Positions 5,997 to 13,649 of a stretch of 64,000 nucleotides of DNA are shown here, in pieces (position 1 is the first letter of the stretch; each line of letters begins with the position of its first letter). Source of the DNA: Aggregatimonas sangjinii (GTDB lineage: Bacteria > Bacteroidota > Bacteroidia > Flavobacteriales > Flavobacteriaceae). Where the stretch lies: positions 3,393,501 to 3,457,500 of the forward strand of contig NZ_CP040710.1 in NCBI RefSeq assembly GCF_005943945.1, read 5' to 3'. Position numbers and translations under genes: made by a program. Below the pieces are notes generated by a model, which was not told where the DNA came from, ran no database searches, and saw nothing but the letters and a program-made list of their open reading frames with translations.

Positions 5997-7382
5997 CTAC
6001 CTTAGGGAGAATTTAACGGGTACTTTCGCCGGTTTCAAAGAAACCAAAGGATTGATCTGTACTTCGCTGTCGGAAGTTGACAGACGGTACTTTTTGACCA
6101 AAAGCCCTACCGTTAGCATCATTTCGTACATCGCAAAATTGTTCCCCACGCACATACGCGGTCCGGCCCCAAAAGGAAAGTAGTAATCGGAGTAGTCTTT
6201 TTTATTCGCGGCATTAAAGCGTTCGGGACGAAATTCAGAAGGATGTTCCCAAAAATCGGCATGGCGATGTAACTCATAGATGCTCATCAGCCAAACCGTA
6301 TTTTTTTTAAAAGTGTGACCATCTATGGTATCTTCGGCCAAACTGACCCTATCGATAACATAGGCCGGCGGATAAAGGCGCATGGCTTCTTCAAGACACT
6401 GTTTGGCGAACGTCAACTTGCCCATCGCCTGCATTAGGTCTTCCTTGTCAAAATCGATTTGACCGACCTCTTGAAATAATTTCTCCTGAATTTCTGGATG
6501 CTTTGCAATCAAAAACAACGTAAAGCTAAGCGTATTCGCTGTAGTCTCAAAACCGGCGGTGAACAGAATCAACACCTCATCAATAAGCTGCTGTCGCGAC
6601 ATACCGGTACCATCTACGTACCGCGCCTGAAGTAGCATATCGAGCAAGTCATCTTTTTCCATTTCTGACGTTACCCGTTCTTCTATGACCTCATCCAGAA
6701 TCTTTTGGCCTTCTTTTGAAAAATTGATATGTTTTCGAATCGCCCCACTCAAATGAAACCACCATTTCAAATAGGGCTGCCGCATTTCCTTGATCAGCAT
6801 TTGTTGATTCGTCATGGTAATGCGCTGCAGTTTTCGCATACGCTCCCGAATATCCCCGGCACTGAACAGCGATTTGGCAACTACTTGAAAGGCAAGGTCG
6901 CCCATTAAAGGAAAGATATCGCGTTCTACATCCGGTCGTACTTCTTTTAATTCCGTCTGGATGGCGGAAAGCATAATTCCCAACAAACCCTCCAACTTCT
7001 TTTTATGAAAGGCGGGTTGTACCATTCGGCGATGGGTTCGCCAAAATTCCCCGTTCGACGTTAAGATACCTTTTCCGATGTATTTGGCCAGATCCTTGGA
7101 TTGTAACGAAGACTTGTGATAGTTTTTATGGTTTTTCTGCAAGATGTATTTGATGGTCTCCGCATTGCGGGTAAAGACTACCTTACTTGCGGGGCCGATG
7201 TGTACCATAAAGGTATCACCGTGTTTCTCGAACCGCTCGTTATGAAAAGGCAATGGATTGGTGAGGATTCGTTTACGGTTTTTGAATACCTCTGCCTGGG
7301 AGACCGAAACAAGGGGCGTTTTGAGAGTTTCTGCAGTGTAAGATGGGTTGTTTTTAGCTGTTTCGGGCATTTTCATTCGCAT
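5997..7382 (-). CDS. Cytochrome P450
   Basis: A 461-residue soluble P450. The oxygen-binding I-helix motif AGFETT is at 276-281, the ExxR of the K-helix is in EEAMR at 331-335, PERF is at 386-389, and the heme loop FGAGPRMCVG has the thiolate ligand Cys411. Length and motif order fit a complete class. There is no N-terminal membrane anchor. The substrate cannot be deduced; fatty acids or terpenoids are common for bacterial relatives. It starts 33 bases after ruvB ends on the same strand, so it is probably co-transcribed with it. No ferredoxin or reductase gene is nearby, so electron donors must come from elsewhere. Confidence 0.93.
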   Translation of the reverse strand: MRMKMPETAKNNPSYTAETLKTPLVSVSQAEVFKNRKRILTNPLPFHNERFEKHGDTFMVHIGPASKVVFTRNAETIKYILQKNHKNYHKSSLQSKDLAKYIGKGILTSNGEFWRTHRRMVQPAFHKKKLEGLLGIMLSAIQTELKEVRPDVERDIFPLMGDLAFQVVAKSLFSAGDIRERMRKLQRITMTNQQMLIKEMRQPYLKWWFHLSGAIRKHINFSKEGQKILDEVIEERVTSEMEKDDLLDMLLQARYVDGTGMSRQQLIDEVLILFTAGFETTANTLSFTLFLIAKHPEIQEKLFQEVGQIDFDKEDLMQAMGKLTFAKQCLEEAMRLYPPAYVIDRVSLAEDTIDGHTFKKNTVWLMSIYELHRHADFWEHPSEFRPERFNAANKKDYSDYYFPFGAGPRMCVGNNFAMYEMMLTVGLLVKKYRLSTSDSEVQINPLVSLKPAKVPVKFSLR

Positions 7383-8535: not shown

Positions 8536-10803
8536 ATGAAAAAGTTTGACTATTCCCTCCGTATTCTGCCCTACATTCCTTTCTTTTATGTGATTTGGTC
8601 GGATGATTTATTGTCTACCTCCGAAATTACCGTAATTCAAAAAAACCTCGACGAAGACGATTCTTTGACCAAGGACGATAAAAAGCTGTTGAGTGCATGG
8701 TTGAAACGGGATAAGCCGCCTGCCGATTCAGAATTCAAAGGATGGAAACTGTTGGTACATAATTCCGGTGTAAAATTGATCGAGAGCGACACCTATCCTT
8801 TAACCGCACTAAGCCAGCGGATGGCCACGTATTACAAATCGAACGATGCCTTTAATGAACAACTAAAGCAAATCGAAATCAACCTGGGTATACAACCCAA
8901 CCACTACAACCATTTGTTCGATGTAGAGGTGGAACACGAAACGACTTCCGACTATTACGATGCCAAGGAAATAGATACTACACTAAAAGGGAAACATGCT
9001 AAGCTCATCGATGGGTTTCGTGCGGTACTGAACGACCCACTTTTCGACTGGGATATTCATAGAACCAAAGAAGCCTTTCGAGAAGTTGTTTTGGAACAGG
9101 TAAAGTTCTTGGCCGATAGAGGTTACGGCGCGATTGCGTATCCGGAAACCTATGGAGGAACCAACGATATGGAGGGCTACGCCTATATGTTCGAAAACAT
9201 GATGTTCGTCGATGGTAGTCTGACCATTAAATTCGGAGTACAATTCGGATTATTTGGGGGTAGCATTCAAAAACTCGGAACCCAAAAACATCACGATCGG
9301 TATCTCAACGCTACCGGTAAGGCCGAACTGCTGGGCTGTTTCGCAATGACGGAAACCGGTCATGGATCGAATGTTCGCGGGATAAAGACCACCGCCACCT
9401 ATAATAAGGAAACCGACCAGCTTGTCGTTCATACGCCAGGAAACAACGACAATAAAGAATATATCGGAAATGCGCTGCATTCTAAAATGGCATCGGTTTT
9501 CGCACAACTGATCGTCAATGGCAAGAATGAAGGCGTGCACGCCATCTTAGTGCCTGTTCGCGACGAAAACCACCAGCTCTTGCCTGGCATTAAAATCGAG
9601 GACAATGGTTATAAACTTGGTTTAAATGGGGTAGACAATGGCAAAATATGGTTTCACCAAGTTGCCGTCCCGCGTGAAAATTTATTGAACAAATACGGGA
9701 CCATCAAAGACGACGGAAGTTACCATTCCGACATCAAGAATCCGAACAAACGCTTTTTTACGATGTTGGGCACCTTGGTCGGTGGCCGTATCTGTGTTGC
9801 CCGAGCCGGACTGGGCGGGGCGAAAATGGCTTTGGCAGTTGCGGTCAAGCACGCGCTCAAAAGAAGACAGTTCAACGACAGCATAAAAATTCAGGAAGAT
9901 TTGTTGATGGATTACCCCATGCATCAATTACGATTGACCCCGCTTGTGGCGAGTGCCTATGTCTATCACATTACCTTGGATAAAATGATGCAAGACTATT
10001 GCGATGATTCGCAGCCGGATAAACGTGTGGTAGAGACCCAAGTGGCGGGACTGAAGTCGATGGTAACCTGGTATGCCAATGAAACGATTCAAGAGTGTCG
10101 GGAGGCCTGCGGGGGAAAAGGCTATCTGCTGGAGAATCGTATTGCGGACCTAAAGGGCGATGTCGATATTTTTACCACTTTCGAAGGAGACAATACCGTT
10201 CTGCTATTGCTGGCGGCCAAAGGGGTGTTGTCAGATTTCAAGGCCGAATTCAATAGTTCCGGGTTCTCATCGGTTCTGAAACTTTTAAGTACACAGCTCA
10301 GCGATAAATTGGCCACAATCAACCCGATGTACTCGAACAAGGTCGATGCGGCGCATTTGTACAATCCGAAATTTCATAAACATGCATTTGACTACCGTAC
10401 CCGCAGACTCACCTATACGTTAGCGATGCGCATTCGGGACTATATTAAAAAGGGGATGCCTTCGTATCAGGCGTTCATGAAAGTACAGACTCATTTGATC
10501 ACTTTGGGTAAAGCCTATGCGACGGAATTGGCCTACAACACTTTTTCGGATTTTGTAGCGACCATGCCGGACGGGAAAAATAAGGAACTATTCGAAAAAC
10601 TAGGTACCCTACATGCCCTACATGAGATTCGTAGCGATGCCCATTGGTATTTGGAACAGGGGTATATCGGAAACTCCAAATCGAAGGCGATACGGTCTCG
10701 GGTCGAACGGCTCTGTACCGAACTCCGACCCCATATTGAGGTGTTGGTCGATGGTTGGGGCATTCCAGAATCTTGTATGAGTGCACCTATTGCGAAAAAA
10801 TAG
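8536..10803 (+). CDS. Acyl-CoA dehydrogenase / acyl-CoA oxidase-like flavoprotein
   Basis: At 755 residues this is far longer than a normal bacterial acyl-CoA dehydrogenase (about 380-400) and has the size and plan of acyl-CoA oxidases. The FAD/substrate core includes CFAMTETGHGSN near residue 270, then an inserted beta domain, and ACGGKGYL followed by TTFEGDNTVLLLL near 550. The family oxidises the alpha-beta bond of acyl-CoA in fatty-acid breakdown. Whether electrons go to oxygen or to an electron-transfer flavoprotein cannot be told from the sequence. It is divergent from ruvB with a 97-base gap. Confidence 0.85.
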   Translation: MKKFDYSLRILPYIPFFYVIWSDDLLSTSEITVIQKNLDEDDSLTKDDKKLLSAWLKRDKPPADSEFKGWKLLVHNSGVKLIESDTYPLTALSQRMATYYKSNDAFNEQLKQIEINLGIQPNHYNHLFDVEVEHETTSDYYDAKEIDTTLKGKHAKLIDGFRAVLNDPLFDWDIHRTKEAFREVVLEQVKFLADRGYGAIAYPETYGGTNDMEGYAYMFENMMFVDGSLTIKFGVQFGLFGGSIQKLGTQKHHDRYLNATGKAELLGCFAMTETGHGSNVRGIKTTATYNKETDQLVVHTPGNNDNKEYIGNALHSKMASVFAQLIVNGKNEGVHAILVPVRDENHQLLPGIKIEDNGYKLGLNGVDNGKIWFHQVAVPRENLLNKYGTIKDDGSYHSDIKNPNKRFFTMLGTLVGGRICVARAGLGGAKMALAVAVKHALKRRQFNDSIKIQEDLLMDYPMHQLRLTPLVASAYVYHITLDKMMQDYCDDSQPDKRVVETQVAGLKSMVTWYANETIQECREACGGKGYLLENRIADLKGDVDIFTTFEGDNTVLLLLAAKGVLSDFKAEFNSSGFSSVLKLLSTQLSDKLATINPMYSNKVDAAHLYNPKFHKHAFDYRTRRLTYTLAMRIRDYIKKGMPSYQAFMKVQTHLITLGKAYATELAYNTFSDFVATMPDGKNKELFEKLGTLHALHEIRSDAHWYLEQGYIGNSKSKAIRSRVERLCTELRPHIEVLVDGWGIPESCMSAPIAKK

Positions 10804-10983
10804 GAATTGTACTTTTTTACGCAACAAGGATTCACGTTTACCGATGAGATTTAATGGAAATTGAAGAAGCGAGTAAGTGTCATCGCGGAGTACTTTGAAC
10901 ACGATTTGAAAAATCCTATTTGTCCTATTTTCCATTCATTTCGGAAGCACTTTAGAAATCGTTTGGAGGGATTTTCGAATTCA

Positions 10984-11298
10984 TTACCTTGAACTCGACC
11001 GCAAATGACTTAGGGGTTGGCTTATAATCTTATGCATCTTTTGACACAGATTTTCATGCAACAATTTATACGTATTGGCGTCGATGAACAAGTAGCGTTC
11101 AAAAAGTAAAAAATCGTCCAGCAAGGAAGTAATCGGGTTGTTGGGCGTGCAGCGTACCACGTCGAAATCTGAATTATCGGATACCATCAAGGTCTGCGGA
11201 GAATCCTCGAACAAACCTAAAGCCTTATCACTGCCGTATAGGATATAATTGGTACTACCCAATCGATTGCTTCGCGATATGTCTTTAGAAGATGTCAT
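10984..11298 (-). CDS. Hypothetical protein, 104 aa
   Basis: I recognise no family. The ORF encodes a mixed, soluble 104-residue protein with a central leucine/phenylalanine-rich helix (LLDDFLLFERYLF) and a basic C-terminus (HLRSSSR). Its start is preceded by GGGGAG, a rare good ribosome-binding site for this phylum. It is divergent from the CI-like regulator gene, sharing a 113-base control region. The composition looks coding, but the gene could still be spurious. Confidence 0.5.
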   Translation of the reverse strand: MTSSKDISRSNRLGSTNYILYGSDKALGLFEDSPQTLMVSDNSDFDVVRCTPNNPITSLLDDFLLFERYLFIDANTYKLLHENLCQKMHKIISQPLSHLRSSSR

Positions 11299-11334
11299 TA
11301 TTTTCGCTCCCCGGATACTAAAAAATTTAGAATT

Positions 11335-11388
11335 TCAACGATAATCGAGACGAACCGTTGATAAATACACGTATTTTCCGTATATTTG
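11335..11388 (+). promoter_or_regulatory. Promoter with overlapping candidate operator for the CI-like regulator
   Basis: A perfect -7 box TATATTTG lies at 11381-11388. A -33 element containing TTGA is at 11358-11361, exactly 19 bases upstream, which is the preferred Bacteroidota spacing. A 6-bp inverted repeat TCAACG-N15-CGTTGA (11335-11340 and 11356-11361) overlaps the -33 element. Its half-sites are 21 bases apart, two helical turns, as expected for a dimeric repressor. Autoregulation by the downstream HTH protein is the simplest reading (inference). Confidence 0.55.
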
Positions 11389-11411
11389 GGGTATAAATAT
11401 ATATTCAATTT

Positions 11412-11831
11412 GTGGATAATACTAATTCAAATACCCAAAATGCCACTTTTATTTTAAAAAGGGTGAAAGATTTGGTCAATGTAAAGCGAGATTTCCATCT
11501 GGCACGCCTCTTGAACATTGCACCTACGACCTTATCTAATTGGAAAAAGAGGAATAGTATTGATTACAAGCTTCTCATTGAGTTCTGCGTAGCCCAAGGT
11601 TTCGATTTGGATTACGTGCTGGCTGGTATAGAGAAGGATAAGGTAAATACACAAATGGAAAATCTTGCCGGATATCTAATCGACAAGGTACGCAATGAAT
11701 TCAAATCGGATTTTCAGGAAATCAGAACTGCTCAAAAGCAGTTGGTAGAAAATTTAGATAAGCTGAAAACGAAGGAAGAAATTGCGTTGGCAAAACAAAA
11801 ATTATCGAAGACCATAGCCCACAATAATTAG
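11412..11831 (+). CDS. Phage CI-repressor-like HTH regulator
   Basis: A 139-residue protein with a GTG start. Residues about 10-65 form a CI-repressor-like helix-turn-helix, with LARLLNIAPTTLSNWKKRN as the recognition region and the family-typical LIEFCVAQGFDLDYVLAG after it. The C-terminal half (about 75-135) is a predicted amphipathic/coiled-coil helix and lacks a LexA-type Ser/Lys peptidase domain, so SOS self-cleavage is not expected. It ends only 3 bases before the convergent small gene. No phage structural or integrase gene is nearby, so it looks like the regulator of a small local cassette. Confidence 0.75.
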   Translation: MDNTNSNTQNATFILKRVKDLVNVKRDFHLARLLNIAPTTLSNWKKRNSIDYKLLIEFCVAQGFDLDYVLAGIEKDKVNTQMENLAGYLIDKVRNEFKSDFQEIRTAQKQLVENLDKLKTKEEIALAKQKLSKTIAHNN

Positions 11832-11834
11832 CGG

Positions 11835-12038
11835 TTATCGATTGTTCGTTTGATGTACGTAACTTAGTAGTAATTCTGACATCTCCTTGGTCTGCATATC
11901 CGCAACGATACGATTGTAGTCGTTCTCAACATCGTCTATAAGCCGACCGAACTCATCAACCGATATTTTGCCTTCATCAAAAAGCGCAGTAGCTCCTTGA
12001 ATCAATAAACGTATGTTGGTAAATCTACTTTGTTGCAT
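11835..12038 (-). CDS. Small hypothetical protein, 67 aa
   Basis: An unrecognised acidic, helical, soluble protein with no Cys and no signal peptide. Its ATG at 12036-12038 lies 14 bases inside the end of the upstream membrane-protein gene, so translation is probably coupled. The sequence looks like a small helical adaptor (LFDEGKISVDEFGRLIDD, loosely similar to short dimerisation helices). Its function probably depends on the membrane partner; this is an inference from overlap only. Confidence 0.6.
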   Translation of the reverse strand: MQQSRFTNIRLLIQGATALFDEGKISVDEFGRLIDDVENDYNRIVADMQTKEMSELLLSYVHQTNNR

Positions 12039-12540
12039 CTTGCATTTTAGCTTTTAATAGCTTCTCCTTAGCTTCTTGTATCATTAATTTCGTACTTCTT
12101 TCTGAAGACTTCCGTGCGAATTGCATAATAAGCAACAAAATAACGGTAATTCCAAAAGAATACGAGTAACTGTACCCATTATCGACCAAACTATAATCTA
12201 TCAGTATAAAATAAAACTGTAGCACATAACAATAGATAGGAACAATATACGCATAAAAATACGGTTTCAATATCGATCCGACAATAATTAACAATGGAGA
12301 AACGGTTACTCCTACCAACCATATAAAAAATGAAGGGTCAATTTGATTTTCTACGAACTTATCGGGCATCAAAGCTTCAACATCAACATTAACCATAGCT
12401 TTGTCGAGATATAGGATCAATCCCGACAAAGCTATAATTATGGATGCCACAACACTAGTACGTTCGTTCAGGGAATTATTACTTCCCCCCTGCCGTACCT
12501 GGTCTATGACCTTTTGTAAGATCGACCGATTCTTGCTCAT
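12025..12540 (-). CDS. Small integral membrane protein, 171 aa
   Basis: No family is recognised. There is an N-terminal cytoplasmic amphipathic segment (1-27), and then four hydrophobic segments at about 29-46, 68-88, 92-115 and 124-141. A charged C-terminal helix rich in Lys and Glu follows (about 142-171). The pattern is a four-helix membrane protein with a cytoplasmic tail. Its start lies inside the gene of the tiny lipoprotein, in a different frame (62-base overlap), and its end overlaps the next small gene. The three are almost surely one transcript facing the CI-like regulator. Confidence 0.7.
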   Translation of the reverse strand: MSKNRSILQKVIDQVRQGGSNNSLNERTSVVASIIIALSGLILYLDKAMVNVDVEALMPDKFVENQIDPSFFIWLVGVTVSPLLIIVGSILKPYFYAYIVPIYCYVLQFYFILIDYSLVDNGYSYSYSFGITVILLLIMQFARKSSERSTKLMIQEAKEKLLKAKMQDATK

Positions 12541-12640
12541 ACAATTCGTCTTCTGCTGCTGTGTCAGGTTTTGTGCACGAAGTCATTGCAATAGCGGATA
12601 CAAATGTCAAAGCGAAAATAATTCTTTTTAAATCTTTCAT
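12479..12640 (-). CDS. Tiny lipoprotein precursor, 53 aa, overlapping the membrane-protein gene
   Basis: From the ATG at 12638-12640 a 53-codon frame runs to TAA at 12479. The N-terminus is a classic lipoprotein signal: MKDLKRII, a hydrophobic core, then the lipobox MTSC with Cys22. The mature part is only about 32 residues, acidic first (AAEDELYEQE) and ending in a basic, Gly/Pro-rich tail (KGHRPGTAGGK). Its last 62 bases are shared with the membrane-protein gene in another frame. It could be a small surface lipoprotein, or a precursor from which a signal peptide or C-terminal peptide is released. The latter is speculation. Confidence 0.65.
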   Translation of the reverse strand: MKDLKRIIFALTFVSAIAMTSCTKPDTAAEDELYEQESVDLTKGHRPGTAGGK

Positions 12641-12824
12641 AACTAAATGTTTAAGGGTTTACAATGCCCCCAAACTATGAAAGTTTTTTTAAAAAATGTC
12701 GTGATTTCCGACTTATTCTTTGTATTTAACGCAAATTGTAAATACCACGATAAAAACCGATGACATTACGAATATAACAAAATACTATTAATGTGCTAAT
12801 ATCGAGCACTTTTTTCTTAATAGC

Positions 12825-13649
12825 CTATTCTTTCTCCTTATGCAATTCGGACGTATCCAAAAATTCGATGATGTCGATTTTCGGGTTTCCCGTTAAATAC
12901 GTTTTGGATGAGCCGCGCGAAGTAAGTTCGAAATCCTTCAGGGCAAATACTCTTGCGCTTGGGGAGCCTTCGGCAAAAACTTCTACCCCTTCTGCCTCCA
13001 ATTTGCTCGCTCTTAAATTCGAGTTGTCGAACAAATGCGCACTTAGTCCGTAAGCCGTTCCTTCCATTTTTATATTTGCGCTTGAGGTTAAATCCACATT
13101 CGTCCATTCGCTGATCGAATATACTCGTACATCCACTCTATCTTTAATGACAAGATTCAAGGTGTCGGATTGAAAATTTAGATCTCCGGAGCTATTTCCT
13201 TCCATCTCTAAATCAATAACACTGGCATTCACATTCATATCCATTTTAGCGGAACCGAACAATTTGGCATCGAAAACGTCTGAAACAACATTGTCCTTTG
13301 TCTCTATTCGTCCGTCGCGTGCAATAACGGATTGTAATTCGGTATAGCTTACGACGATATCAAGTTTCTTTTTTGCGGTAATCTTATAGAAAGAACTTAT
13401 TTCCAACACCCCATTGACCACCTCAAATTTCAAAACGTCGATCAAGTTGTCATCCGCATTGATGAAAACACCTTCTTGCCTTCCTTTACGGAGCTCGATT
13501 CTAAGGTCGTCATTGAGCTCGATAGCGTTGAACGGGGGTAAATCTTGCTGCACCTCTATAACGCTCTTATTGCCCTTTATTTTGGGTTTACGTTGGGAGA
13601 ACGCTTGAAGGCAAAAGACCAGCGCAATCAATAGTGTTATTTTTTTCAT
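12825..13649 (-). CDS. DUF2807 (GIN-domain) secreted protein
   Basis: A 274-residue protein with a Sec signal peptide (MKKITLLIALVFCLQAFS, cleavage near residue 19). It is followed by a beta-helical DUF2807 / autotransporter-adhesin-head-like domain (PPFNAIELNDDLRIELRKG near residue 38, then repeated short strands such as LEMEGNSSGDLNFQS and ANIKMEGTAYG). Such proteins are common, abundant exported proteins in Bacteroidota with no firm function. It stands alone after the terminator of the oxidase operon. Confidence 0.82.
   Translation of the reverse strand: MKKITLLIALVFCLQAFSQRKPKIKGNKSVIEVQQDLPPFNAIELNDDLRIELRKGRQEGVFINADDNLIDVLKFEVVNGVLEISSFYKITAKKKLDIVVSYTELQSVIARDGRIETKDNVVSDVFDAKLFGSAKMDMNVNASVIDLEMEGNSSGDLNFQSDTLNLVIKDRVDVRVYSISEWTNVDLTSSANIKMEGTAYGLSAHLFDNSNLRASKLEAEGVEVFAEGSPSARVFALKDFELTSRGSSKTYLTGNPKIDIIEFLDTSELHKEKE

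Follow-up and report, generated by a model that had tools for sequence, protein, structure and literature searches.

What does a dense group of five small genes, with little sign of function beyond one repressor-like domain, do for the chromosome or the element that carries it? The question is raised by genes A to E of the window – the 64,000-nucleotide stretch analysed here, part of the 4.72-Mb chromosome of a Flavobacteriaceae species. A preliminary description had presented them as a five-gene cassette. The cassette is real, conserved and recurrent; the recurrent unit comprises four genes, E-D-C convergent with B, and gene A is not a core member. Taken as a whole, it has the appearance of a switch, hitherto undescribed, for peptide sensing or for exclusion. 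Coordinates are collected in the table.

Features of the cassette (positions within the window)
Feature	Position	Strand	Length	Description
A	10984-11298	-	104 aa	uncharacterised; divergent from B; optional neighbour
A-B divergent regulatory region	11299-11411			candidate operator; promoter-like element and inverted repeats
Promoter-like element TTG-N20-TATATTTG	11358-11388			within A-B region; overlaps the inverted repeats
Inverted repeat AAATACACGTATTT	11363-11376			A-B region; candidate operator
Inverted repeat TATATTTGGGGTATAAATATA	11381-11401			A-B region; candidate operator
B	11412-11831	+	139 aa	GTG start; CI-like HTH regulator; convergent with C
C	11835-12038	-	67 aa	helical soluble protein; SHOCT-like (sub-threshold)
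D	12025-12540	-	171 aa	predicted four-helix inner-membrane protein, N-in/C-in
E	12479-12640	-	53 aa	predicted exported lipopeptide precursor; lipobox TSC; acidic spacer
E tail VDLTKGHRPGTAGGK	about 12482-12526	-		C-terminal part of E
Insertion interval	about 10797-12818		~2.0 kb	from genus-mate comparison of flanking genes

The architecture proved to be exactly as first described: there are five frames, of which E and D overlap by 62 nt and D and C by 14 nt, and 3 nt separate the stops of C and B. The repressor-like helix-turn-helix reported for B was likewise recovered (Phage_CI_repr, E=3.8e-12; 46.8 bits against a cut-off of 22), and D is predicted, as had been claimed, to span the membrane four times and to leave its tail in the cytoplasm. 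The cassette idea had been said to fail if the small frames were not conserved at codon level. They are so conserved: in pairs drawn from independent loci (window/L032, L006/L007 and L009/L031), substitutions in A to E are mostly most frequent at codon position 3 and least frequent at position 2, as befits protein-coding genes. Alignment Z-scores for the A to E pairs range from 5.5 to 43, and all five homologues occur in identical order in L032, L006 and L007.

The history of the site is legible from related genomes. The cassette is flanked by mutually convergent genes for an acyl-CoA oxidase (ACOX, 8536-10803) and a DUF2807 protein (12825-13649), which in six genomes of the same genus (G001, G002, G003, G005, G006 and G007) lie only about 20-90 bp apart; the cassette is absent from the site in these genus mates and is therefore an insertion of about 2.0 kb. 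The D proteins of genus mates are encoded elsewhere and are only about 30-40% identical to that of the window, neighbouring CoxA is 90-93% identical among the same relatives, and the closest D belongs to another genus (Croceitalea, L032/L057; 54% identity). The empty site, the divergence of D within the genus and the foreign nearest relative together indicate that the cassette was acquired horizontally. No recombinase gene was found in the cassette, and the only target repeats there were short and of the kind expected by chance; the module stands by itself here as an insertion of about 2 kb that probably stems from a conjugative element. Since two genus mates (G004 and G008) carry a different insertion at the ACOX-DUF2807 junction, the junction may be an insertion hotspot. 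The different insert seen there in two genus mates (L102 and L103) encodes secreted proteins of 1229 and 1041 aa.

Recurrence at unrelated sites had been proposed as the sign of a mobile or selectable unit, and it is found: E-D is present at 23 other mobile loci, all in Flavobacteriaceae, with B convergent in 17. Counting each locus once, and including the window and a prophage (L178), E-D occupies 24 mobile-type loci, with E upstream of D at every one; most of them also have C, and at 18 of them B faces C or D in convergent orientation. The membrane protein and the small proteins, which the idea needed to co-occur, do so. The spacing of the B and C stops usually ranges from a gap of 49 nt to an overlap of 32 nt. 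Five complete loci have E-D and lack B (L035, L036, L037, L051 and L053), and several core and mobile pairs lack the E/D overlap, which is thus not essential.

The carriers are diverse, and the phages among them are Mu-like or otherwise temperate. They include Mu-like phages with MuA-type transposases bearing rve or Mu C-terminal domains (L064, L054 and L068), a phage with an integrase (L055), and a phage whose late operon has E-D-C immediately ahead of a gene identified as tape measure by PHROG (L053; E=1e-210); the arrangement in the late operon of phage L051 is probably the same. Conjugative elements carry the module beside TraE-F-G (L007), beside a relaxase (L009) or, in the ICE of L060, with E-D right after TraM-TraN. 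A conjugative Aquimarina plasmid (NZ_CP053591) carries it too, and the window, L036 and L037 are chromosomal. Searches of phage and plasmid records with D returned only spurious phage matches and one real plasmid; in class and phylum samples, D is essentially restricted to the Flavobacteriaceae. Response regulators flank the module in four conjugative elements (L006, L007, L009 and L031), with no sensor kinase seen adjacent to them. Gene A is conserved in four cassettes; its relatives stand alone in seven loci (L171-L177), which makes it an optional neighbour. An unnamed small protein of mobile elements, it lies in two cases (L173 and L175, judged by eye) beside genes for a relaxase and a TraG-like ATPase.

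Across the E proteins, conservation lies in the C-terminal tail, whereas export signal and spacer vary. In mobile E proteins the tail carries the motif VDxxxVxRPGxxGG, which is kept across unrelated carriers, most of it being lost in the L006 cassette. Three kinds of export signal stand in front of the tail: a lipobox; a plain Sec signal, used by the core family described below; and a double-glycine-type leader. The last belongs to the prophage version of the module (L178:5144-8419), where the leader ends KTIKGG, followed by EDATTVPPAVTDEEDIDRGGGRPKTNG, and matches to the Bacteroid_pep and ComC leaders are sub-threshold. Most E proteins are predicted to be lipid-anchored; mature E is acidic, hydrophilic and about 3 kDa. 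When E was set by eye against the SusD-type signal for surface export known from Flavobacteriaceae (PMC5080379), it had many acidic residues following the Cys, but the resemblance was not clear enough for us to claim surface exposure.

Four E proteins contain the tail in two to four tandem copies. Silent differences between the copies outnumber replacing ones by 8:1, 4:2, 9:0 and 13:4 (P=5e-5, 0.02, 3e-7 and 6e-6), an excess confined to the E frame. Because the repeats differ mainly silently, each of them is, by this substitution pattern, under purifying selection as protein. The description of E as a tiny lipoprotein is correct in that it has the lipobox TSC, and falls short in that E is paired with D and has a core chromosomal version beside porX-tsaE.

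D offers a plausible partner. D46, K47 and W74 are invariant and D120 nearly so, and all four are predicted to face the periplasm; W74 is followed by further conserved residues at P82, P101, Y105, Q108 and Y127 as well, and the cytoplasmic tail is, on the predicted topology, basic. The structural model is only moderate (pLDDT 79.5, pTM 0.60). D matched no family above cut-off in Pfam, NCBIfam, PHROG or PADLOC and no fold among PDB and viral models at E<=0.001, and the alignments varied too much to be scanned for patterns. When 39 D proteins were placed in a tree, mobile copies formed a separate clade (100/100), inside which phage, ICE, plasmid and chromosomal copies are interleaved. Two assignments were tried and abandoned: a lysis-cassette or spanin role, suggested by the overlap of a small lipoprotein gene with a membrane-protein gene and set aside since D has no periplasmic domain and the pair is also chromosomal and core, and a protease like signal peptidase or AgrB, rejected because no Cys or His is conserved and the core family does not retain the D46/D120 pair. 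At L139 and L156, D-D fusions of about 400 aa lie beside tsaE; an HTH gene converges on them, and no E was found there.

A second group of D proteins, weakly found by the D profile, is homologous to the first in profile comparison (hhalign probability 98.1, E=8.8e-14, 118 columns), and we take this core D as a remote homologue of mobile D. Downstream of porX, 212 of 300 sampled Flavobacteriaceae genomes (about 70%) carry it in the interval from tsaE to ald, with at most one doubtful case beyond the family among 247 in a class-wide sample. It is usually preceded by an E-like exported peptide that has the acidic spacer of mobile E and a related Asp/Lys motif as its tail; C is missing, and usually B. 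The porX-tsaE-ald locus of the window genome has no E-D, its copy lying instead between the acyl-CoA oxidase and DUF2807 genes. Loci with the core pair include L120-L138 (20 genomes), L041, L043-L046, L048 and L049, and some genomes have up to seven D-type matches. In two core E peptides (L135:3280-3501 and L136:3029-3310), V(D/N)KTQLINGDK is repeated in tandem three or four times, and most of the differences between the copies are silent.

The regulator departs from its phage relatives in a specific way. The C-terminal S24 peptidase domain is absent from window B and from the other cassette B proteins scanned, whereas all four of the nearest CI-like phage relatives scanned (among L166-L170) have it as their C-terminal half. 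Cassette B proteins, of 118-188 aa, end after a short coil; 12 of the 13 B relatives found outside cassettes, in a sample of 150 family genomes, have 194-243 aa and an extra C-terminal region (a weak S24 match in only two of the 12), and the thirteenth is short, with no D nearby. Without the C-terminal domain of those phage relatives, B probably escapes induction through RecA/SOS cleavage. In the Mu-like phages L064, L054 and L068, B occupies the site of the master repressor, and a small DNA-binding-type gene and MuA diverge from it. A repressor so placed, and without S24, suggests that E-D-C provides the input that S24 cleavage otherwise supplies.

What, then, is the cassette for? The reading that we prefer, though tentatively and with somewhat less than even confidence, is a mobile switch built of peptide, receptor and repressor: E the ligand, D the receptor, C the relay and B the repressor. 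E would be exported, with its C-terminal tail – to judge from conservation and repeats – the active part; the tail would bind the conserved periplasmic face of D; and D, through its basic cytoplasmic tail and C, would alter the activity or location of B, a CI-like repressor presumably outside SOS cleavage control. In phages and conjugative elements such a switch would tie lysogeny, transfer or renewed entry to the peptide. We favour this reading because E-D recurs at mobile-type loci, mostly with B convergent, among neighbours such as MobA relaxase, TraE/TraF/TraG, TraM-TraN, MuA or integrase; because the tail is kept across unrelated carriers, follows three export signals and, where repeated, differs mainly silently in the E frame only; because D46, K47, W74 and D120 lie on the predicted periplasmic side; because B holds the repressor position in three Mu-like phages without the S24 domain of its relatives; and because D-type proteins recur beside HTH genes, even as fusions without E. 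Several facts count against it. The five complete loci without B, together with the core pair, show that the link to the repressor is not universal. Most E proteins are lipid-anchored and so are not freely diffusible signals. The HTH families of B vary among cassettes (some, as in L009 and L054, with no Pfam HTH match), the SHOCT similarity of C is sub-threshold (15.4 bits against a cut-off of 27 for the L034 homologue, no match for window C), and the fold searches with D were uninformative.

A bolder version we consider rather unlikely: that the mobile elements of Bacteroidota use E-D-C-B for peptide signalling. Flavobacteriaceae phages, ICEs and plasmids would then have an exported peptide code, VDxxxVxRPGxxGG, in common; D would be the new receptor family that reads it; and the system would replace SOS induction in the decision over lysogeny or transfer, having been exchanged with the core host peptide-receptor pair beside porX.

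The main rival is superinfection or entry exclusion, which we hold to be somewhat unlikely: E and D, in the envelope of the carrier, would stop the entry of DNA from related phages and conjugative elements, and B would only regulate their expression. Prophages, ICEs and a conjugative plasmid are exactly the carriers that use exclusion, and the placement of E-D after TraM-TraN and of E-D-C before tape-measure genes adds to its credibility. There are also precedents: the TP-J34 lipoprotein Ltp, HK97 gp15 and P22 SieA (an inner-membrane protein of 162-164 aa) block DNA injection (PMC10883804), and exclusion in conjugation involves the small lipoprotein TrbK as well as TraS/TraT (PMC8923210; PMC11733297). 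However, no cassette protein matches any exclusion family in sequence; the same E tail is kept by carriers that are unrelated, although exclusion tends to be specific to its target; and exclusion gives no obvious reason for the core version, the tandem tail repeats or a B without S24.

Alternatively, E-D could be at heart a housekeeping envelope pair of the Flavobacteriaceae (porX-tsaE-E-D-ald), with the mobile copies as paralogues that alter or add to it without doing anything particular for the mobile element. The abundance of the core pair, its homology to mobile D, the shared acidic spacer and Asp/Lys tail and the absence of the core pair from the window genome all fit; yet mobile D forms its own clade in which carrier types are mixed, and mobile units add C and a convergent B and are strongly enriched on mobile elements, so that we regard this as improbable. 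A toxin-antitoxin or bacteriocin-immunity system, with E the toxic peptide and D or C its protective partner, is very improbable: a small exported peptide beside a multi-span membrane protein, with a double-glycine-type leader in one case, recalls such systems, but mature E is acidic and hydrophilic (grounds on which a bacteriocin was rejected), the genes read in the surroundings of the window cassette and of L178 showed no transporter, and no toxin, immunity or defence family was matched above cut-off – none in PADLOC-DB, none among NCBIfam toxin/antitoxin models, and in Pfam only the HTH. An Rfam search also found nothing. The suggestion of signalling, immunity or toxin control rather than housekeeping survives for signalling or exclusion; no family match supports toxin control.

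Comparison with known systems brings out both parallels and differences. In ICEBs1, too, a CI-like repressor is governed by signalling between cells that uses a small exported peptide (PMC10233336); there RapI reads the peptide and the protease ImmA cuts the repressor ImmR, whereas the cassette has a membrane protein and a small helical protein, with no match to an ImmA-type metalloprotease or any peptidase among its proteins and no Rap/TPR gene. Arbitrium and other RRNPP systems, described for Firmicutes, have an intracellular receptor (PMC10075063); a phage-borne peptide thought to inform lysogeny is common ground, and E is propeptide-like, but the candidate receptor here is a four-span membrane protein, and A, B, C and D give no TPR match. 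TraS-TraT and TrbK also bring an inner-membrane protein and a lipoprotein to conjugative elements, without sequence similarity to the cassette, which also occurs in phages and as a core version; TraT, moreover, is about 24 kDa as against about 3 kDa for mature E. The prophage-encoded envelope proteins P22 SieA, HK97 gp15 and TP-J34 Ltp offer a parallel, some of the present modules adjoining tape-measure genes; they are dissimilar in sequence, and each is a single protein, not a membrane protein paired with a peptide whose tail is conserved and repeated. Phage CI (Phage_CI_repr plus Peptidase_S24) resembles B in its N-terminal HTH and in repressor position, and differs in the S24 domain. By the defining features tested, the cassette thus appears to lie outside each family considered. 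As a candidate for an undescribed system it stands: D has no family model, and no published description was found in literature searches outside subscription journals.

D and E, then, represent an unnamed family with a mobile version on at least three kinds of element in addition to its widespread core version. If E is a ligand, its repeated, selected tail is a ready-made synthetic peptide with which peptide control of Bacteroidota phages and ICEs could be examined; if exclusion is true, the family would be one of exclusion genes common to phages and conjugative elements. Both outcomes are testable in cultivable marine bacteria. A further gene sometimes accompanies the module: in phage L051 it is adjoined by the gene for a secreted DUF4468 protein (6769-7284; TBP-like fold), and similar genes lie near it in L038 and L055.
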